64,000 nucleotides of DNA, taken from NCBI GenBank assembly GCA_028282905.1, contig JANQGW010000184.1, forward strand, positions 1 through 64,000. The letters run 5' to 3'. Source of the stretch: Sedimentisphaerales bacterium (GTDB taxonomy: Bacteria > Planctomycetota > Phycisphaerae > Sedimentisphaerales > Anaerohalosphaeraceae). Positions 4,026 through 38,730 of the stretch are shown piece by piece. Under the pieces are notes generated by a model. That model saw only the letters and a list, made by a program, of their open reading frames with translations. It was not told where the DNA came from and did not search any database. The first letter of the stretch is position 1, and every line of letters begins with the position of its first letter. The position numbers and the translations under genes are program-made.

Positions 4026-7000
4026 ATGAGACGAATATGTTTTCTTGCGATATTACTGGCAGGGAATCTGCTGGCAGGAGTGTCTGTCCGGCAGACCAAA
4101 GAGTCAATGATAACTTATCCTTTCGGCCCGGCCGACCCCGTTCCAGTCATCACGCGGACAAGTTTCTGGAACAGGGCTGAGAAAATCTATCCATATAGCT
4201 ATTTTGACAGTTTCAGTACGGAGCCGATCTCAAAAGAATGGACGGTGATACGTCTGGAAAATCCCTATGTCGAAGTGTCGATCATGCCGGAAATTGGCGG
4301 AAAAGTCTGGGGAGCGAAGGAGAAATCGACCGGCAAAGAGTTTATCTATACCAATGACTCGGTTAAGTTCCGTGAAATTGCACTTCGCGGCCCGTGGACA
4401 TCGGGCGGTATCGAATTTAATTTTGGGCTTGTCGGTCACACATGCAATACCTCAACGCCGGTGGACTATGTGATTAACAGAAACGATGACGGTAGTGTGA
4501 GTTGTTTTGTCGGCGGTACCGATCTGTGTTCACGCAGCCGGTGGACCGTGGAAATAAAAGTCCCCAAGGATAAAGCGTATTTTGAGACGAGGACGTTCTA
4601 TTATAACCCCACCGAGCTGCATCAATCCTGTTACGCATGGTCAAATAGTGCGGTGAAAGTCAGTGATGATTTCGAGGTGGTCTATCCCGGCAAGAAACGG
4701 ATTGGCCATGATTATTCCGAACCGCTGGTTGACTGGCCGGTTGATGAAAACGGGATTGATATATCGCGCTATAAAAATAACTATTTTGGTACACACAAGA
4801 GCTATTTCATCTTCGGTGAGATGGAGGAGTTTTTAGGATGTTATTGGCACAACGATGATTTTGGCAGCGGTCACTGGTCTCTGTATGATGATATGCCCGG
4901 TCGAAAACTCTGGCTCTGGGCGCTCTCCCGTGAGGGAGCGATGTGGGAAGACTTATTGACCGAATCGCACGGCCAATACGGCGAAATCCAGACTGGGCGA
5001 TATTTTAACCAGAACGATCACGGATTTCTTGAACCGTCCGGCGGAGGTCGGTGGCGCGAGGTGTGGTTTCCTTATAAGAAAATCGGGCCGATGGCTCAGG
5101 CTTCCGAATATGCGGTTCTGAATGTTGAAAAAAAGGACGATGTTCTGAAAATCTCGATATGTGCGATCGAGCGAATTGATGAGGAACTTGTTGTTGTTTC
5201 GGATGACAGGAAACGGCTGACGAAAAAAATAAAATTAATACCGATGGAGACTTTTGAGACGGAAGTTGCCATTGAGGAGGATGGGAGGCCGTTTAAGATC
5301 ACTATTGGTGATAAGCTGCGATATACGTCGGATCAAACTGCTAATGACCTGGAACGACCGATTGATTTTCATGAAATTGATACGGATACCACAGAAGGAT
5401 TATTTTTGGAAGGGCTGCGTCAGGAGAAGTGGCGGGGATATGATCTTGCTATGGAAAGCTATCTGGCATGTCTGAAACAGCAGCCGAAACATGTCCGTGC
5501 GATGTGCCGCGTAGCCGAACTCTATGTCCGCAAAGGGATGCTTGCGGAGGCGCTGGGGTATGCTCAACAGGCTTTGAAAGAAGATCTGTATGATGCCGAG
5601 GCGAACTATATTTACGGCGTGATTGCTGTGCGGCTGGGCAAATACGCGGACGCAAAAGACACGCTCGGATGGGCGGCTCGTTCCATGCGGTATCGGTCGG
5701 CTGCGTACGGCCGGATTGCTGAGGTCTATATTCGCGAAAAGAACTGGGCCAAATCGCTGCTGTACTCAAACAGGTCGTTGGAATACAACGTGTACAATGT
5801 CGTTGCGCATCAGGCCAGTGCTATTGCGTTTCGCAAGAGTGGTGATAAAAGAAATGCGGAAAAGTCAATTCAAAAATTGCTTGAGATCGATCCGCTTAAT
5901 CACATTGCCCGGTATGAAGCTTATTTAAAGTCGCGTAATAAAAAACTTTACAAGCGATTGATCGATACTGTTAATAACGAATACGCCGCGGAAACCTTTG
6001 TCGAAATGGGAGTTTACTATGCGGGGCTGGGGCTGGGTCAGGAGGCTGGCGAACTCTTTGAGCTTGCCGGCGAGCATCCGATAGCGGATTGCTGGCAGGG
6101 ATATCTTGTCAGAAACAGCGATCCTGAGAAGGCAAGGCGGCTGGTGGCACAAGCGGCTAAACTTCCGTCTGAATTTGTGTTTCCATTTCGAGAAGAGACA
6201 ATTCCGGTGCTTCAGTGGGCCGTTGAGACCTGTCCCAAAGAATGGAAAACAGCTTACTATCTGGGGCTGCTGTACTATTCGAAGGGAATGTTTGAACAGG
6301 CCCGAGAATTACTCAACGGCATTGACCAGAATGAAATGGCAACATTCTATATTGTTCGCGCCAATCTGAACGGAAAGTTTGATAAGACCCTGTCAGAGAC
6401 GGATTATCAGCGTGCGACCGAGATCGACGCCGGCAACTGGCGAACCTGGCATCATCTGATAAAATACTATTTAGATTCAAAGCGGCCTGTTGAGGCTTTA
6501 ACCACATCCGAGAAAGCATTAAAACAGCTTCCCGAACGGGCGGTTCTTGAACTGGATCTAATCCGGTCTTTGTGTGCCAACCGAAAATGGGCTTCGGCAC
6601 TTCAACTGCTTGAGAAAACCTCAATTCTTCCTTTTGAAGGGGCAAGCGAAATTCATCGGCTTTATGTGCAGTGCCATGTATTATTGGCGGTGGAGGCAAT
6701 GAACAAAGAAGCCTTTGGTGAAGCGATCCAGCATCTGGAGGCATCCCGGCAATATCCGGAAAGACTGGGCACCGGCAAGCCTTTTGACCCGGACTATCGA
6801 AAACAGGACTATCTTGAAGCTATCTGTCAGGAACAACTTGGAAATGCAGAAAAGGCGGAACTGTTAAGAAAACAGGTCATTAAATATACATCAGAAAATA
6901 CTGACGACACGAGTGAAAATGCCTTTTTTGGCAAAAGAGCACTTCAACATTATGGTGACAAAGATATGGCAGAAATAATCAACCCTGAAAACATGCCGGA

Positions 7001-9998
7001 TGATTCGATAATCGATGTGGTGATTGAATCCGAAAAAGCGTACAATGAAATGTCTTACAACGGCACAGGCCGATGGAATCAGGAAGAGCTTGGAAATCAT
7101 CGGGTTCTCATTCGTGTCGAATCGTCGGCGAGGGCTGTTCGAGTGCATATTCCTTGGCGCCGGCGTGATAAAGATGTTGCTGACAAAGCGGTTTTTCTTA
7201 CTGACAGCACAGGGCAGCATATACAGAATATCATCCCATACGCGTTTAACAGGGAATATGGAGATTTTGTTTTTGAGCCGATGGCCGGGGCCGGAGATTA
7301 CTACCTGTACTATATGCCCTATGAGAAAACCGGAACCTATTATCCTCAAGTTCATTATCTCGAAGCTGATTTTAATCCGGTTGCAGGGTGGCTGAATGAT
7401 TGTAGTTTAACAAGAGACAACATTTCTGTTGAAGTTTGGAACAGCCTGCCACTGGCTAAGGCGGTTCAACTGCAGTCGGTGGACGCATTCAACAGCTTTT
7501 ATCCGATGGAAATTATTGCGACCGCAGAGGAGACGGAGATAGTCATCAAGCGGTCGGCGGCGGAAAATTGCCTGCTGTTTCCCGAACACCGTGAATTTCC
7601 TATTCGTCTGGCCGACGATCTTCCGTTGCGATGGGTCAGCAAGAAGTATTCTGACACCTTAGCGGGCACTGCAGCCAGAGGCGAGTTCTTTACGATGCAG
7701 ATTGGCGTCTATGCTTTTAAACATGCTATCGATAATATCGAGGCCGAATGGGCAGACCTTCAACATGCGAATGGAAGCAGCCTGATACTGGCAGATGCTG
7801 TTAACTGTTTTAATACCAGGGGAGTGAACTGGGACGGGACCATTCTCGAAAAGAACTGCTCGGTAGAAAAGGGCAAGGTGCGTGCGATGTGGTTTGGTAT
7901 CGACATTCCCACTGATACGAAGCCGGGAAAATATTCCGGTGTGATTCTCTTGCGTTCCGGGCAGACAGATCTTGGCAGTGTCAAACTGGAACTACTCGTT
8001 CGGGATGAGGTGCTTGCCGATCATGGTGATGCCGAGCCGTCCAGACTCAGCCGGCTCAGATGGCTGGATTCCCGGATTGCCGAAGACGATGAATTAGTCA
8101 AGCCTTTTACTCCAATGAAAGTCTCCGGTCGGACGATAAGCTGTCTGGGAAGGGCGGTGACATTAAACAAATCCGGTTTTCCGGTGCGGATCGTCAGCTT
8201 TTTTTCGCCGGAGGTGACACAGATTACCTCGATTCCCAAAGAGATTCTCAGCGTCCCGATTACCCTGAAGGCAGAGGGGCGGAAAGGTGTCATTGAATGG
8301 AAGACGGATGATTTCAAATTTACAAGCAAAAAAGATGGGGTGGTTCAGTGGCAATCTCAAAACAGCAGCAAATCTCTGACATATAAATGCCGGGGCAAAA
8401 TGGAGTTTGACGGATATTGCGGATTTGAGGTTGAAGTGACCGCCGCGGAAGATATTTCACTCAGCGATATCCGACTGGAAATCCCGCTCAATAAGAAGAT
8501 TGCCAAATACATGATGGGCATGGGCGTCAAGGGTGGTTTGCGCCCCGAAAACTTTTATTGGAAATGGGAACCGGCCAATAATCATGACAGCGCATGGCTG
8601 GGTGATACCTGCGGGGGGCTGCAATTTAGCCTGAGAGACGATAAGTACGAGAGGCCTCTGAATACCAACTTTTACCTGTCGAAACCACTTGTGATGCCTG
8701 CTTCCTGGAGCAATGACGGCAATGGCGGCTGTCGAATCAGGGCCGCCAATGATGATACGTTGGAGATAACGGCATTCAGCGGTCCAAGGAAAGTGCTTAA
8801 AGGGGAGACGCTCTATTACAACTTCCATCTGCTAATCACGCCTTTTAAGACACTTGACACAAAGACTCAGTGGAACACACGTTTTTATCATGCACATAAG
8901 CCGGTTGAAGAAGTGGCCGCATTTGGCGCCAATACGCTCAATATCCACCATGCCACGGAAATTAACCCCTTCATCAACTATCCTTTCCTGCGACCGGATG
9001 AGATGAAGGCATACATTGATCAGGCACACGACAGGGATATGAAAGTCAAGATCTATTATACCGTGCGTGAACTTGCAAACAGGGCACCGGAGTTATTTGC
9101 CTTGCGAAGTCTGGACGACGAAGTACTTTCATTCGGCCCCGGGGGCGGGTATTCGTGGCTGCAGGAGCATCTTGGCGATAATTACATTCCGGCGTGGTTT
9201 GTGGATCGTTATAAGGATGCCGCGGTCATTAACAGCGGTGTCTCACGGTGGCACAACTATTATCTCGAAGGGCTGAATTGGCTGGTTAACAATGTCGGGA
9301 TTGACGGGATTTATATCGATGATGTGGCGTTTGATCGGACGGTGATGAAACGGGTTCGAAAAATACTGGATCGCGGCAATGACGGCGCATTGATTGATCT
9401 GCATTCGGCCAATCAGTTTAATCCCAAAGACGGATTCGTCAACAGTGCCAATCTGTATCTGGAGCACTTTCCCTATCTGGATCGGCTGTGGTTTGGCGAG
9501 TATTTTGAATATGACTTGGGGCCGGACTATTGGCTTGTCGAAGTGTCGGGGATTCCTTTTGGGATTATGGGCGAAATGCTGCAGGATAACGGGAATCCAT
9601 GGCGAGGTATGGTCTATGGCATGACGGCCCGGATGCCGAGAACAGATATGCCCGCCAGGTTATGGAAGGTGTGGGACAGTTTCGGAATACAGGATTCCGA
9701 AATGATTGGCTATTACAGTGAAAACTGTCCGGTCAAAACCACCTCTCCGAAAGTTATCGCAACGGTTTATAAGAAAGGCGGCCAAAGCCTGATTGCGATT
9801 GCCAGTTGGGGCGGCAAGCCGGTTCAATGTAAACTTGAAATTGATTGGGCCGCTCTGGGATTGAATAAGGAGAATGCTGTTCTTAAAGCCCCTGCCATTG
9901 AAGGATTTCAGGAACAGGCGCAATTTTCTCCATCTGAGGCGTTGACGGTTCAACCGGGCAAGGGGTGGCTTTTGATATTGGCGGAGAAATCTTCCTGA
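4026..9998 (+). CDS. Very large secreted DUF5107-TPR-DUF6067 (glycoside-hydrolase-like) fusion protein
   Basis: ORF 3987..9998; ATG at 4026 gives a signal peptide (MRRICFLAILLAGNLLAG). N-terminal DUF5107-like 'MPEIGGKVWGAKEKSTGKEFIYTNDSVKFREIALRGPWTSGGIEFNFG', central TPR-like region, C-terminal DUF6067-like 'DRDMKVKIYYTVRELANRAPELFAL...GIDGIYIDDVAFDR'. Confidence 0.8.
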   Translation: MRRICFLAILLAGNLLAGVSVRQTKESMITYPFGPADPVPVITRTSFWNRAEKIYPYSYFDSFSTEPISKEWTVIRLENPYVEVSIMPEIGGKVWGAKEKSTGKEFIYTNDSVKFREIALRGPWTSGGIEFNFGLVGHTCNTSTPVDYVINRNDDGSVSCFVGGTDLCSRSRWTVEIKVPKDKAYFETRTFYYNPTELHQSCYAWSNSAVKVSDDFEVVYPGKKRIGHDYSEPLVDWPVDENGIDISRYKNNYFGTHKSYFIFGEMEEFLGCYWHNDDFGSGHWSLYDDMPGRKLWLWALSREGAMWEDLLTESHGQYGEIQTGRYFNQNDHGFLEPSGGGRWREVWFPYKKIGPMAQASEYAVLNVEKKDDVLKISICAIERIDEELVVVSDDRKRLTKKIKLIPMETFETEVAIEEDGRPFKITIGDKLRYTSDQTANDLERPIDFHEIDTDTTEGLFLEGLRQEKWRGYDLAMESYLACLKQQPKHVRAMCRVAELYVRKGMLAEALGYAQQALKEDLYDAEANYIYGVIAVRLGKYADAKDTLGWAARSMRYRSAAYGRIAEVYIREKNWAKSLLYSNRSLEYNVYNVVAHQASAIAFRKSGDKRNAEKSIQKLLEIDPLNHIARYEAYLKSRNKKLYKRLIDTVNNEYAAETFVEMGVYYAGLGLGQEAGELFELAGEHPIADCWQGYLVRNSDPEKARRLVAQAAKLPSEFVFPFREETIPVLQWAVETCPKEWKTAYYLGLLYYSKGMFEQARELLNGIDQNEMATFYIVRANLNGKFDKTLSETDYQRATEIDAGNWRTWHHLIKYYLDSKRPVEALTTSEKALKQLPERAVLELDLIRSLCANRKWASALQLLEKTSILPFEGASEIHRLYVQCHVLLAVEAMNKEAFGEAIQHLEASRQYPERLGTGKPFDPDYRKQDYLEAICQEQLGNAEKAELLRKQVIKYTSENTDDTSENAFFGKRALQHYGDKDMAEIINPENMPDDSIIDVVIESEKAYNEMSYNGTGRWNQEELGNHRVLIRVESSARAVRVHIPWRRRDKDVADKAVFLTDSTGQHIQNIIPYAFNREYGDFVFEPMAGAGDYYLYYMPYEKTGTYYPQVHYLEADFNPVAGWLNDCSLTRDNISVEVWNSLPLAKAVQLQSVDAFNSFYPMEIIATAEETEIVIKRSAAENCLLFPEHREFPIRLADDLPLRWVSKKYSDTLAGTAARGEFFTMQIGVYAFKHAIDNIEAEWADLQHANGSSLILADAVNCFNTRGVNWDGTILEKNCSVEKGKVRAMWFGIDIPTDTKPGKYSGVILLRSGQTDLGSVKLELLVRDEVLADHGDAEPSRLSRLRWLDSRIAEDDELVKPFTPMKVSGRTISCLGRAVTLNKSGFPVRIVSFFSPEVTQITSIPKEILSVPITLKAEGRKGVIEWKTDDFKFTSKKDGVVQWQSQNSSKSLTYKCRGKMEFDGYCGFEVEVTAAEDISLSDIRLEIPLNKKIAKYMMGMGVKGGLRPENFYWKWEPANNHDSAWLGDTCGGLQFSLRDDKYERPLNTNFYLSKPLVMPASWSNDGNGGCRIRAANDDTLEITAFSGPRKVLKGETLYYNFHLLITPFKTLDTKTQWNTRFYHAHKPVEEVAAFGANTLNIHHATEINPFINYPFLRPDEMKAYIDQAHDRDMKVKIYYTVRELANRAPELFALRSLDDEVLSFGPGGGYSWLQEHLGDNYIPAWFVDRYKDAAVINSGVSRWHNYYLEGLNWLVNNVGIDGIYIDDVAFDRTVMKRVRKILDRGNDGALIDLHSANQFNPKDGFVNSANLYLEHFPYLDRLWFGEYFEYDLGPDYWLVEVSGIPFGIMGEMLQDNGNPWRGMVYGMTARMPRTDMPARLWKVWDSFGIQDSEMIGYYSENCPVKTTSPKVIATVYKKGGQSLIAIASWGGKPVQCKLEIDWAALGLNKENAVLKAPAIEGFQEQAQFSPSEALTVQPGKGWLLILAEKSS

Positions 9999-30673: not shown

Positions 30674-30702
30674 TTGACAACTCTTTGGCAAATGTGTAAT
30701 GT
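30674..30702 (+). promoter_or_regulatory. Putative sigma70-type promoter upstream of the FG-GAP gene
   Basis: TTGACA - 17 nt - TAATGT, upstream of an RBS (acaaggagaaaaaATG). Confidence 0.55.
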
Positions 30703-30738
30703 CATTAGGTCTGAGGTATTTTCTTACAAGGAGAAAAA

Positions 30739-32286
30739 ATGAAGAAATGTATTGCCCCTGTTTTGGTGATTGCGGTCATTATTGGGATTATTGTTCTGAA
30801 CCGGCAATTGACAAAGAAACCCTCTGAAACAACTGAACAAATATCTTCACAAACAGCATCCGCTCCCGCTGCCGGCGATTCGAAGGCTCCGGCTGCGGCA
30901 ACAGCAAAACTTATGTTCAAAAAAGGCTTTCCGGTAATGGATGGCGAGAACCCGATGACGGTTGGCCTGACGGCATCGCCGGAGATGGTGGACTGGAACA
31001 ATGACGGCAAACGAGATTTGCTGGTTGGGACCTTTAACGGCGGGGCGGTTCACCTGTTTATCAATCAGGGGACCGACACGGTGCCGGTGTTTAAGGGCGG
31101 TGCCAAAATCACCGCAGGAGGTAACATTCTTTCCGTGGGGGCCGGGTGATGTCAGGGAGCTCGTCCACGTGTCGTGGACTATAACGCGGATGGTAAAAAA
31201 GACCTCATCGTTGGTGATACCGGTGGATTCCTGTATGTCGGGATCAATGAAGGCACCGATGCGGCGCCGGTTTTAGGTAAACTGGAAAAGATTAAGGTCG
31301 CCGGCAAGGAATTTCAATGTGAAGAAGATCGTGCCAAACCGGCGGTTGTCGATTGGAACAATGACGGCAAGTTCGATATTCTGGTGGGGCAGGAATATGG
31401 AACCGTCTGTCTTCTGCTCAATAGCGGCTCGCCCAAGGAGCCGAAATTCGACAAAGCCGAAACGCTTATGATTGGTGCTAAACCCCTTAACGGCGGTATG
31501 CGTGCCGATGTGGCGGTGGCGGATTTAAATGGTGACGGCAAAAAAGACCTGATATGTGCTGACGAATGGGCCAAAATCAACTATTTCGAGAATGTTGGTA
31601 CCGATGCGGCTCCGCGTTTTGAAAAAAGTGTTACGCTAAAGGCGAAGGGACCGCCAATTGAGTACAGAGCCGGCGCTTCATGGCGTGAAGATTTTGACGG
31701 CGATGGACAAATCATGTATATTCGGCACAACAACTACGGCTTTATTCAACTGGACGGCAAAGACAGACAGAAGACAAATCTTCAGGCCGGTGGTCGGGAA
31801 TTCAAGGTGACGGACGGAAAACTGCGGTTTTGCGTTACTGATTGGAATAACGATGGCAAAAAGGACATGCTGTGCGGACAGGAAAACGGCACAATCTACC
31901 TTTTAATCAACACAACCAACCAGGAACCGCCGGTCTTTGAAAAGGAAGTCTTGCTGAAAGACGGTGACAACGTCCTGAATGGCGGTCCTGCCATTGTTCC
32001 GACTGTCAAAGACAGCAACGGCGACGGCAAAAAGGATTTGGTCTGTCTGAATATGAACGACAAAACACGTGTATTCCTGAACCAAGGTACAGATTCGGCG
32101 CCGGTATTCAATGGATACACTGACGAAGTTGTGCCCGAGTCCGAAATCTGCGGAGGCTATCGAAGCCGCCTAACGGTGGTTGATTGGAACAAAGATGGCC
32201 TGCAGGATATCATCTACGGCGTTGAGAGCCACCGGGATCACAAGGCCCGTCTGTATGTTTATCTTCAAATGAAAGCATCTAATTAA
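30739..32286 (+). CDS. FG-GAP/VCBS-repeat protein with N-terminal membrane anchor; one in-frame TGA (31147-31149): candidate selenoprotein or nonsense mutant
   Basis: ORFs 30739..31149 and 31174..32286 are in the same frame, separated only by TGA plus eight sense codons (...GGNILSVGAG-[TGA]-CQGARPRVVDYNADGKKDLIVGD...). DxNxDGxxD repeats continue across the TGA. Confidence 0.75.
31163..31179 (+). promoter_or_regulatory. Candidate bacterial SECIS-like hairpin
   Basis: GTCCACG-TGT-CGTGGAC: perfect 7-bp stem, 3-nt loop with G at position 2; 13 nt from TGA to stem, 20 nt from TGA to loop. Confidence 0.4.
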
Positions 32287-32313: not shown

Positions 32314-32364
32314 AAAAAACTGGTATCTGTTTCAGAGTATACTCACGCAGATGCCAGTTTTTTT
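32314..32364 (+). terminator. Rho-independent terminator after FG-GAP gene
   Basis: AAAAAACTGGTATCTG ... CAGATGCCAGTTTTTTT. Confidence 0.85.
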
Positions 32365-34402: not shown

Positions 34403-36472
34403 ATGAATGTATCGTCACGCAAGGCCCGGACAATTTCGATAATCGCTTTTATTTTGTGCCTGATCTTCTTTATTTTTACGCTGGCGTTTGGTGTTGCCGT
34501 CAAGGTGCTGGCCATGTACCTGTTGAGCTGGCAGATTTTAGCCGGGGCGATGATCTGGCTGGTTTTGATCTTCCAGTTCCACCAACGGTCGCTGGCCGAG
34601 CAGGAAAAACTGGACATGAGCCAGTTGGCCAAATCAGACCAGCAGGGCACGATCTTTTCCGGCGGGGCCGACCGCATGGCCATGATGGCGGTGGCTCAAA
34701 AGCGGCTGGTGTTCCTGGAAAAATGGATTTTGCCGATTTCCTCGATTGTGATTGCCATTTATCAGGTCTTAATTGGTTTGTGGCTTTTCAGACTCATTAC
34801 AGATTCGACCTGGACAGCTGACTGGAAATCTGAAAATGAGTTGCTGGCAGCATTTTTAATGGCAGGTGTGACATTTGCATGCTTTTTGTTTAGCCGGTTT
34901 TCCACCGGTATGAGCAGCGAAAAGCAGTGGAAGCCTCTTCGGGCCGGGGGCAGCTATCTGCTGGTGACGGCGGCTATCGGTCTGGTGATGTTCATTTCAC
35001 TGGGATTTGCGGCATTTAAATATGAAGGGGGTCTGAAGGTTCTTCAGTATATCATCCCGGGCGTTCTGGTGGTTTTAGGGTTTGAAATCCTCCTCAATTG
35101 CATCCTGGATATCTACCGACCGCGACTGGCGGGCGAATACAGCCGGGCGTCGTTTGACAGCCGGATTCTGGGGATTTTCAACGAGCCAGGTGGCATTATG
35201 CACACCGTTGCTCATACGATTGACTACCAGTTCGGTTTCAAAGTTTCCCAGACTTGGTTTTATCAACTGCTGGGCAAGGCTATTATGCCGCTGGTTCTGC
35301 TGGCGATGCTCATCTTATACCTGATGAGTTCCGTGGTCATTGTTGGACCGGGACAGGCAGCAGTCATTGAGCATTTTGGTTCCCCGATGCGGGATAAAGG
35401 CCCGGGGTTGCATTTTAAATGGCCCTGGCCGGTTGAAATTGCCTATGTGTATCCGACTGAAGAGATTCAGGAGTTAACGATTGGCTATAAAGAAGGGGAA
35501 GAGGATAAGAAAAAGAAGGCGTTCCTCTGGGGTGAAAAGCATTTTGAAGAGGAGTATGATCTGCTGGTCGCCGTGCGAACCGATACCGAGTCCGGCAGTG
35601 ACGGTGCGGTGCCGGTGAGTGTGGTGCTGGCGAATGTACCCATTCAATATCGCATTTCGGATTTGAAAAAATATCTCTATAATCACAAGCAAGCTAAAGA
35701 CATGTTAGAGTCGATTTGCTACCGTGAACTGACGCGTTTTGCTGCCAGTGCCAATATTGATACCGATGTAGATGTGTCTGAGGCATCGCAGGCAAGTCTT
35801 TTGGGAGCCGGGCGCAAAGCGGCTGCAAATGCATTGAAACGACGTATCCAGAAAGCCGCTAATGAGGTTGTCCTGGGACCGGAGGCTGGTGACGTTGGTT
35901 TGGGTGTTGAGATTGTCTTTTTAGGATTGCATGGAGTTCATCCACCGGCAGAAGTTGCCAAGGAATATGAGCAGGTTATTGCTTCGGTTCAAGAAAAACA
36001 GGCAACGATTCTGGAATCGCAGGCCGAGAAGAACCGGATTTTGACGGAACTGGCGGGTTCGATCGAGGCTGTAGATGCACTATATGAACTGGCGGGGAGA
36101 TTAGAAGCTGCCAAACAGGCAGGCGATGGCCAGGTGGAGGAGCAATTACAGAAAGAGTTTCTTGCTTCTCTTGAGGTGGTCAAGGGCAAAGTCTTTAAAA
36201 CACTTCGTGAGGCGGACAGCTATGCGTTTGAACGAGTCAATCTTGCCCGCGGAGACGGACTTCAGTTTGATGGTCAGCTTATGAGCTATCAGGCTGCACC
36301 GGAGCTTTACAAAAAACTCCAACGTCTGAATGCGATGAGCGAAGGACTAAAAAATGTCCGTAAATTTGTGGTTATCACCAATGAAGAAGACTCGCAGATT
36401 TATGAGATTGACCTGCAGGAAAAACTGACCGAGTCGATTTACATGGACCCTGGGTTGAAGGGCGAAGAATAA
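34403..36472 (+). CDS. SPFH/HflK-like protein with an extended multi-TM N-terminal domain
   Basis: 689 aa; several hydrophobic helices in the first ~310 aa, then 'VVIVGPGQAAVIEHFGSPMRDKGPGLHFKWPWPVEIAYVYPTEEIQELTIGYK' and a coiled coil. Confidence 0.82.
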   Translation: MNVSSRKARTISIIAFILCLIFFIFTLAFGVAVKVLAMYLLSWQILAGAMIWLVLIFQFHQRSLAEQEKLDMSQLAKSDQQGTIFSGGADRMAMMAVAQKRLVFLEKWILPISSIVIAIYQVLIGLWLFRLITDSTWTADWKSENELLAAFLMAGVTFACFLFSRFSTGMSSEKQWKPLRAGGSYLLVTAAIGLVMFISLGFAAFKYEGGLKVLQYIIPGVLVVLGFEILLNCILDIYRPRLAGEYSRASFDSRILGIFNEPGGIMHTVAHTIDYQFGFKVSQTWFYQLLGKAIMPLVLLAMLILYLMSSVVIVGPGQAAVIEHFGSPMRDKGPGLHFKWPWPVEIAYVYPTEEIQELTIGYKEGEEDKKKKAFLWGEKHFEEEYDLLVAVRTDTESGSDGAVPVSVVLANVPIQYRISDLKKYLYNHKQAKDMLESICYRELTRFAASANIDTDVDVSEASQASLLGAGRKAAANALKRRIQKAANEVVLGPEAGDVGLGVEIVFLGLHGVHPPAEVAKEYEQVIASVQEKQATILESQAEKNRILTELAGSIEAVDALYELAGRLEAAKQAGDGQVEEQLQKEFLASLEVVKGKVFKTLREADSYAFERVNLARGDGLQFDGQLMSYQAAPELYKKLQRLNAMSEGLKNVRKFVVITNEEDSQIYEIDLQEKLTESIYMDPGLKGEE

Positions 36473-36516
36473 TCAATTAAAAACTGAACGGTTTTAGAGT
36501 TTACAGGAAACGCAAA

Positions 36517-37431
36517 ATGAAGAGTATCTGGACAATTATCTTTATTCTGGTGGTGATCGGCATTCTTGCGATGGCGGCGGTAACGTTTCAAGTCCGTACA
36601 ACCGAAACGGTGATCGTGACCCGTTTTGGTGAACCGGTGCGGCCGATTACCGAACCTGGGTTGTATATGAGATTTCCAAGCCCCATTGATGTGGTCCACC
36701 GATTTGATTCACGCAGTCGATTGTTTACGGCCACGACACAGGAAACCACGACTGCGGGCGGTGAGCCGATTATCGTCAAGAGTTATCTGGTCTGGCGCAT
36801 TGCCGATCCGGGGAAATTTCTGGAATCTGTGAAAGATGTTGACAGTGCAGAAGGTAAGATCAAAAGCCAGCTTCAGGATGCGCAGAACTCGGTGATTGGG
36901 CGTCATTATTTCAGTGAGTTCGTGAATACAGACCCGGAAAAAATTCAATTCGAAGCGATTGAAAAGGAAATCGCCGGCATGATCGAGAATGAAGCCTTGG
37001 ATCAGTATGGGATTGAAATTCGTACGGTGGGTATTGAGCGTCTGCAGATTTCCAAGGAAGTGACTGAGAAGGTCTTTGAGCGGATGAAGGCCGACCGCAA
37101 CCGTAAAACACAGGCGATTCTGGCTGAAGGTAACGCTGAAGCAGAACGGATTAAAAGTGATGCTGAAGCCAAGCAGAAAGAACTTTTAGCCGTTGCTGAA
37201 AGTCAGGCCAAGGCGATTCGTGGTGCCGGTGATGCCGAAGCGGCTCGCTATTACAAGATGCTCGAAGCGGATCCGGAACTGGCAATTTTCCTGCGTAATA
37301 TTGAAGCGTTGAAGGACATCTTAAAGGAACGCAGCACGATTATTCTGGGCGTTGAAACTGAACCGGTCAAGTATCTCAAGAGTATCCCGGACATCCAACC
37401 GAAGGATGCTTCTTCGCAGGCGGAGAAATAA
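36517..37431 (+). CDS. SPFH/HflC-like protein
   Basis: 'FQVRTTETVIVTRFGEPVRPITEPGLYMRFPSPIDVVHRFDSR', 'RNRKTQAILAEGNAEAERIKSDAEAKQKELLAVAESQAKAIRGAGDAEAARYY'. Confidence 0.9.
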   Translation: MKSIWTIIFILVVIGILAMAAVTFQVRTTETVIVTRFGEPVRPITEPGLYMRFPSPIDVVHRFDSRSRLFTATTQETTTAGGEPIIVKSYLVWRIADPGKFLESVKDVDSAEGKIKSQLQDAQNSVIGRHYFSEFVNTDPEKIQFEAIEKEIAGMIENEALDQYGIEIRTVGIERLQISKEVTEKVFERMKADRNRKTQAILAEGNAEAERIKSDAEAKQKELLAVAESQAKAIRGAGDAEAARYYKMLEADPELAIFLRNIEALKDILKERSTIILGVETEPVKYLKSIPDIQPKDASSQAEK

Positions 37432-37434
37432 GAT

Positions 37435-38730
37435 ATGGCAGATCATCACTCTCATAAGAATTGCGGTTGTTCCAACGATCAGCCTCAGGACGAACGTGTT
37501 ATCCAGGAGCAGTTGGATACCGCAGGCAAATCGTTGACCCGGGCGCTGCAGCTGAGCTTTACCATTCTGAAGCTGATTATGGTTGGCGTTGCTATCCTGT
37601 TTTTGCTGAGCGGGATTGTACAGATCCAGCCGGGAGAACAGGCATTGCGTCTTTTCTTCGGTCGCGTACAGGGAATGGATGAGGATCCGCTTTTGAAGCC
37701 GGGGATTCATTTTGCGTTTCCCAAGCCAATCCATGAAATCGTGCGGATTCCGGTGGAAAAGGTGCAAACGCTGCCGATCGAATCTTTCTGGTATTTTGAA
37801 ACCGCAGAGGAAAAACTTAATCCGGAAAAGAAGCGTCCCGCTCGCGGTCCGCTGGATCCGCTCAAAGACGGATATTGTCTGACGGGCAATGAAAGTCTGA
37901 CCGGCGATGAGGGTACAGATTATAATATTGTTCATTCTAAGTGGACGCTGACGTATAAGATTGGCTCACCCAAGAAATTTTTTGAGAATGTCTATATGCG
38001 TGACCGCAAGCCGGGGGAGGATTTTCTGGATGCGGCGTCCGGTACGGTTGAGCCTTTACTGGAAAGTTTAGTCTCGGATGCAATTGTTAGTACGCTGTTG
38101 CACTATGACATTGATAAGGCTATTAAGAGTGAGGACAGTATTGCTCGCAAGGTTAAGGCGATACTTCAGGAAAAACTGGATTTGATTGAAAGCGGTATTG
38201 CCATCGATGCTGTACGAGCTGACCGGATTGTCTGGCCGAGGCAGGTTGATGCGGCTTTTCAGGCTTCGACCAAGGCGAGACAGGAAAGTGAGCAGGCTCG
38301 TGTTGATGCTCGGGCATACAGTGAAAAGCTTCTGACCGATACGGCGGGGCCGAATGCGGAGGCAATTCTAAAAAAACTCAAAAAGCCGGGGCTTTCGCAA
38401 GATCAGCAGGAAGAACTTGTAGCCGGTTTGTCCGGGCAAGTGCAGGCGGCGATTTCCGGAGCACGAGCCTATAAGACAGGCGTGGTCAGTAATGCCAAAG
38501 CCAATGCTGAATACCTCACGAATCTGCTGCCGGAGTACCGGAAGTACCCCAAGTTGGTTCTGCAGGATATTTACCAGAAAGCGGTCACGGAAGTGCTGGC
38601 CAATGTTGATGAGAAGTTTATCATGCAGCGGTCTGAAGACGGTAAGCCCGTGGAATTCAGGTTGTATATGAATCGCGATCCGAATATCAAAAAGCAAAAA
38701 GCTGAAGCGCAAAAAGACAAACGAAATTAA
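37435..38730 (+). CDS. SPFH/HflK-like protein with His/Cys-rich N-terminus
   Basis: MADHHSHKNCGCSNDQP; 'IVQIQPGEQALRLFFGRVQGMDEDPLLKPGIHFAFPKPIHEIVRIPVEKVQTLPI'. Confidence 0.85.
   Translation: MADHHSHKNCGCSNDQPQDERVIQEQLDTAGKSLTRALQLSFTILKLIMVGVAILFLLSGIVQIQPGEQALRLFFGRVQGMDEDPLLKPGIHFAFPKPIHEIVRIPVEKVQTLPIESFWYFETAEEKLNPEKKRPARGPLDPLKDGYCLTGNESLTGDEGTDYNIVHSKWTLTYKIGSPKKFFENVYMRDRKPGEDFLDAASGTVEPLLESLVSDAIVSTLLHYDIDKAIKSEDSIARKVKAILQEKLDLIESGIAIDAVRADRIVWPRQVDAAFQASTKARQESEQARVDARAYSEKLLTDTAGPNAEAILKKLKKPGLSQDQQEELVAGLSGQVQAAISGARAYKTGVVSNAKANAEYLTNLLPEYRKYPKLVLQDIYQKAVTEVLANVDEKFIMQRSEDGKPVEFRLYMNRDPNIKKQKAEAQKDKRN

Follow-up and report, generated by a model that had tools for sequence, protein, structure and literature searches.

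The question raised by this locus is whether a TGA triplet that interrupts a long reading frame marks the end of a gene, reflects an error, or is decoded as selenocysteine (Sec). The window, that is, the whole 64,000-nucleotide stretch of DNA that was analysed, belongs to a MAG-type assembly of 5.71 Mb in 243 contigs with a completeness of 93%. A preliminary description, made from the sequence alone, had proposed here an undescribed selenoprotein of the FG-GAP/VCBS type. We find it very likely that the TGA is indeed a Sec codon and that the gene encodes a selenoprotein; the evidence is comparative, and there is no biochemical demonstration. This reading is based on the presence of the Sec genes on one contig, the occurrence of TGA at 65 homologous sites, the restriction of the codon to TGA or Cys, a covarying hairpin behind it, and the existence of Cys forms in genomes without SelA. 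The features of the locus are as follows.

30674-30702, + strand: promoter-like TTGACA-17-TAATGT (weak, under the consensus threshold of the scan)
30728-30733, + strand: ribosome-binding site AAGGAG (from the sequence)
30739-32286, + strand: selenoprotein gene (very likely) for a 515-residue protein, a predicted FG-GAP/VCBS beta-propeller with a membrane anchor; its TAA stop is 32284-32286 (from the joined frame, Pfam, alignment and model)
30751-30804, + strand: hydrophobic helix of residues 5-22 at the N-terminus, taken as a membrane anchor or uncleaved signal (from the sequence and an AlphaFold2 model)
31147-31149, + strand: TGA codon, very likely for selenocysteine (U137); the next residue is Cys138 (from 65 distinct homologous sites and a strict-motif scan)
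31163-31179, + strand: SECIS-like hairpin with the apical loop GTGTC (31169-31173) between the stem arms 31163-31168 and 31174-31179
32314-32363, + strand: strong intrinsic terminator, a hairpin past the end of the gene (MFE -25 kcal/mol, z -5.6)

The open reading frames 30739-31149 and 31174-32286 lie in one frame, and with TGA read as U this frame runs through 515 amino acids to the TAA, the TGA at codon 137 being its sole internal stop. From the base composition, the chance of finding 378 further open codons after a random stop is ca 2e-9. Compared with the nearest relative, found in genome G106, the region after the TGA shows a protein identity of 71.5% and a dN of 0.19, while the region before it has an identity of 65.4%. 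The downstream part is thus conserved, which is not what a decaying reading frame would look like. A dN/dS ratio is not given for this comparison, since dS is saturated.

Several claims of the preliminary description could be settled at this level. The claim that a single frame of 515 codons is split only by the TGA was correct, also in its coordinates, and the claims of a ribosome-binding site and of a terminator held as well. The promoter is present, yet it scores below the threshold of the scan and constitutes only weak evidence. The TGA triplets at 9998, 17061 and 20814, which had been quoted as normal stops, are there as codons; that they end genes is a statement of that description only.

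A complete Sec system is encoded in the genome. One contig (C49) carries a full-length SelA immediately before SelB (SelB E 6e-96), and also SelD (372 bits) and a tRNA-Sec whose score of 70.9 bits exceeds the cut-off of 47. The search for selA, selB, selD and tRNA-Sec therefore supports the Sec interpretation. SelA was found in 37 of the 39 TGA-form genomes tested, and within the order, SelA and/or tRNA-Sec above the cut-off is present in 15 of 17 Sec-form genomes, compared with 7 of 21 other genomes (Fisher p 0.0009). Of the seven Cys forms, on the other hand, six are in near-complete genomes, all from a single genus, in which a real SelA is missing. It is important to point out that the co-occurrence counts are not corrected for phylogeny, and that in a family-matched comparison SelA is common also in planctomycetes that lack the TGA motif. 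The co-occurrence with SelA in planctomycetes is therefore a necessary condition that has been passed, rather than a strong proof.

There are also exceptions to the pattern. SelA was not detected in the TGA-form genomes G047, G032, G329 and G483 (77-88% complete each), and in G032 and G047 no tRNA-Sec above the cut-off was found either. G032 is a single contig of 5.8 Mb, which means that incompleteness alone may not account for the absence of SelA there. One exception is seen among the Cys forms, namely a Cys-Cys orthologue (G344:C2:83822-83868) whose genome has retained SelA.

A protein search in 161 genomes of the order shows that the best relatives, too, have a TGA in frame. Its position is that of the window gene in G106 (68% identity), G142 (47%), G131 (46%), the genome's own paralogue on contig C15 (41%) and others. 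Further relatives, in Planctomycetota, Lentisphaerota, Sumerlaeota, Caldithrix, SM23_31 and Bacteroidales, come from a search of a public genome collection, by which alone the phyla beyond planctomycetes were sampled. The TGA is found within a G-U-C-x-G-x-x-P motif at 65 distinct homologous sites in independent assemblies, the paralogue in the same genome included, and the Sec-form relatives at these sites include members of Planctomycetota, Lentisphaerota, Sumerlaeota and Caldithrix. When 30 of the Sec proteins are aligned, U137, C138, G140 and P143 are invariant, as are the Asp residues of the Ca2+ loops. In a tree of the core domain, a single branch has all 63 Sec-Cys rows on the same side (support 92/62).

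At the DNA level, the pattern U-C-x-G-x-x-P-x-x-x-D-x-[ND]-x-D gives 50 matches in 44 of 392 planctomycete genomes, while the reversed control gives none. With the first codon relaxed to TNN in the same genomes, TGA is found 49 times, TGT or TGC 7 times, and an unrelated TCA once; TAA, TAG and TGG are not found at the Sec codon in this strict-motif scan. The homologues thus have TGA at this position, or Cys in the lineage without SelA, and other stops are absent. A related argument of the preliminary description, namely that a Cys is present also at the equivalent loop of other repeats, is not supported, as the Cys residues of EFQCEED and EICGGY are seen only in the window protein and its closest relative. 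Among the relatives, the site itself appears as U-C, C-C, G-C-x-G-C, G-U and C-U, and another subfamily has CxxC.

The sequence GTCCAC-GTGTC-GTGGAC starts 13 nt past the TGA and can form a hairpin of six pairs. In the bacterial SECIS model, the apical loop is 16-37 nt from the UGA, with a G in the first two loop positions (PMC13188914). Here the loop GTGTC is 19 nt past the UGA, and the criterion is met; the G is found in 47 of 65 members and is absent in 18. In the gapless alignment of the 65 Sec sites, all six pairs are formed at 55. In 127 other blades taken from these proteins, which served as controls, the full set never forms, although they share the protein motif P-x-x-[VA]-D. Overall, 97.2% of the cells are paired, while structures slid along the alignment reach at most 44%. 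Cells with a double change number 35, against 11.3 in shuffles, and none of 500 shuffles gives as high a value.

Covariation, with changes on both sides, is observed for three of the six pairs. One of them alternates between G-C and A-U and connects the codon before Pro with the Asp wobble base, another (A-U/G-C) connects the Pro wobble base with the second base of a Val/Ala codon, and the third (C-G/U-A) changes along with a Val to Met replacement. The pairing is thus kept even at the cost of a protein change (Val to Ala or Met). The association is significant at the Sec sites (Fisher 1e-11 and 1e-8, uncorrected for phylogeny) and absent in the control blades (p 0.57 and 0.56). The hairpin also follows the TGA. 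Namely, its 4-bp core is present at 46 of 49 TGA sites and in none of 7 Cys orthologues, and the complete six-pair form is found in neither the 17 CxxC homologues nor the 7 Cys orthologues. For the window hairpin alone, the thermodynamic z-score and the folding energy are unremarkable, and no Rfam family matches the hairpin or any other part of the window; the case for it is therefore made by the covariation and the controls.

The comparison shows that the UGA, the hairpin and the Sec genes belong together and that Sec is under selection. In the mechanism that we infer, SelB and Sec-tRNA-Sec would read the UGA as selenocysteine, directed by the hairpin. This arrangement resembles that of the E. 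coli FdhF/FdnG type, in which the SECIS element likewise lies inside the coding sequence with its apical loop about 19 nt past the UGA and SelA, SelB, SelD and tRNA-Sec are employed.

Some individual homologues deserve mention. The paralogue (G000:C15:15831-17390; L114:2832-4499, - strand) is a second Sec gene of the same genome, in which a compensatory hairpin CCG...GCGG (Val to Ala) replaces CCA...GTGG. In bin PL23a_bin.125, five consecutive Sec propeller genes with type IX secretion-like C-terminal domains are found on one contig (L050:803-7512). Four homologues from Nitrospirota, Phycisphaerales and Eisenbacteria (L070:540-1709, L091:4842-6149, L093:4953-6209 and L110:4833-5486) have the TGA one codon off, giving G-U-x-G instead of G-U-C-x-G, and in these the canonical hairpin is not obvious. 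It is possible that Sec has here taken the place of the neighbouring Cys. Finally, L063 (match 5001-5813) has the C-U order, GCUGSKNPQCPQ, and an insertion; the stem TCCAC...GTGGA is seemingly kept, with a longer loop.

The assignment of the protein to the FG-GAP/VCBS family also held, as the joined protein matches Pfam FG-GAP_3 (PF13517) with E 1e-32 and contains DxNxDGxxD Ca2+-loop repeats with invariant Asp columns. In the AlphaFold2 model (mean pLDDT 87), the N-terminal helix is followed by about eight blade-like units, while the model of a compact relative (L061) has five blades (pLDDT 92). Foldseek and profile searches point to integrin alpha, ITFG2, CRTAC1 and fungal lectins, with PDB profile matches to integrin alpha-4 (E 6e-9) and CRTAC1 (E 2e-7), which fits the VCBS/integrin/tachylectin supercluster (PMC8023676). 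The models are confident all-beta repeats; the TM-scores to solved propellers are modest (0.2-0.56). The protein thus has the FG-GAP_3 repeats, DxNxDG Ca2+ loops and propeller-like model in common with VCBS/FG-GAP propellers such as integrin alpha, tachylectin, Psathyrella velutina lectin, CRTAC1 and ITFG2, but differs from those compared in having about eight FG-GAP motifs, or five blades in the compact relatives. The U137-C138 pair sits in the loop that joins blades 1 and 2, after the final strand of the former and ahead of the first strand of the latter. Several relatives have a type IX secretion C-terminal domain, so that the propeller is extracytoplasmic at least in those. For the window protein, we infer from the anchor helix that the N-terminus would hold the product in the membrane, with the Ca2+-loop propeller outside the cytoplasm.

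Could the TGA have an explanation other than Sec? A nonsense mutation in a pseudogene, or a TGY or TGG codon miscalled in sequencing or assembly, is suggested by the fact that this is a lone in-frame stop, known from a MAG-type assembly without read data. However, the same TGA recurs in independent assemblies of other species, TAA, TAG and TGG never occur at the codon, the downstream half is conserved like the upstream one, and the hairpin covaries, which together leave practically no room for this scenario. Another option is that TGA encodes a different amino acid, through a genome-wide code change or a suppressor, or that programmed read-through yields a minor long form. TGA is known to mean Trp in some bacteria, and read-through would likewise keep the downstream region coding. 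Against this stand the complete Sec system of the genome, the fact that the replacement codon in relatives is only Cys and never TGG, the presence of a hairpin at SECIS distance only where TGA is, and the single TGA that breaks the frame. We consider also this option to be ruled out in all but name.

Given a selenoprotein, the role of the U-C pair is far less certain. It is inferred that the vicinal residues would form a selenylsulfide/selenol-thiol couple, and we lean slightly towards a redox site, with thiol or peroxide chemistry, although no activity is known for any member; a soft-metal or ligand site is the less likely variant of this favoured explanation. The exchange between the U-C, C-C, G-C-x-G-C, G-U and C-U forms is easier to reconcile with a redox or metal site than with one that is purely structural, and relatives without SelA retain Cys-Cys. 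The rival is a selenoprotein in which the pair is structural or binds a ligand or metal, for example at a sugar- or metal-binding propeller face, and is not a redox catalyst. In favour of it, the PDB structures related to the propeller are those of lectins, integrins and scaffolds, pairs of vicinal Cys are known to serve as ligand platforms, and the gene of the nearest relative adjoins a sulfatase and a GH101 enzyme. Speaking against it is the use of costly Sec at an invariant position that is swapped with Cys-Cys or CxxC, as is typical of redox sites (PMC13188914). We judge the rival to be the weaker of the two and less likely than not. Methanol dehydrogenase, an enzyme with a propeller fold, is also known to have a vicinal Cys pair close to its cofactor, a parallel that is suggestive but not a test. 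An inference of function from the gene neighbourhood was rejected: the nearest relatives have no conserved neighbours (sulfatase/GH101, glycosyltransferase/sigma factor, tryptophan synthase and GFO/IDH dehydrogenase, respectively), and these differences provide no functional clue.

While the recoding is of the standard kind, what appears to be new among selenoproteins, within the sources checked, is the family together with its fold and motif. The 119 prokaryotic selenoprotein families inventoried in 2026 (PMC13188914), among which those of Haft & Tolstoy 2025 are tabulated as well, include no propeller, FG-GAP or VCBS family. A scan of 30 members against NCBIfam gave no credible selenoprotein model, the only match being NF040734 in two members (E 0.007). 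NF049953 (ribbon_DG_selen, hypothetical protein DG, GUxG) is similar in having Gly before and after Sec, but it is a model of 172 positions and matches neither the window genome nor P0001. The searched full texts contained nothing relevant on an FG-GAP/VCBS or Planctomycetota selenoprotein (Deng et al. 2026 and Haft & Tolstoy 2025 were not covered), and PMC4807772 gives planctomycete selenoproteins, with FG-GAP/VCBS absent from its main text. To our knowledge, Sec is not known in VCBS/FG-GAP beta-propellers, although the search for the U-C motif did not extend to PDB sequences. Within these sources, the claim that the selenoprotein is undescribed is supported. Compared with the FdhF/FdnG-type selenoproteins, the fold is neither thioredoxin-like nor of the molybdopterin type, and the motif is a vicinal G-U-C-x-G instead of the UxxC/CxxU of the bacterial selenoproteins compared.

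The Sec reading would add a large selenoprotein family that is spread over several phyla, can have several members in the same genome and is cut apart by standard gene callers, with a fold class (a secreted or anchored Ca2+ beta-propeller) that is not in the current inventory. It would also imply redox or soft-metal chemistry on a scaffold regarded as adhesive. The homologues provide a natural set of covarying SECIS elements in which RNA pairing limits the protein (the Val/Ala/Met switch), useful for SECIS models and selenoprotein prediction. A bolder reading, which we hold to be slightly less likely than not, is that these proteins form a widespread class of selenoenzymes, beta-propellers outside the cytoplasm whose active site is a vicinal Sec-Cys pair at the propeller mouth and whose sequence is in part set by the SECIS element. 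If true, both the fold and the active-site geometry would be unknown among selenoproteins.

A search of phage records gave no match. As to the surroundings of the gene, three consecutive SPFH/Band 7-like genes (689, 304 and 431 aa) are located at 34403-38730 on the + strand, and the first of them, the only one scanned against Pfam, matches Band_7 with E 5e-15.
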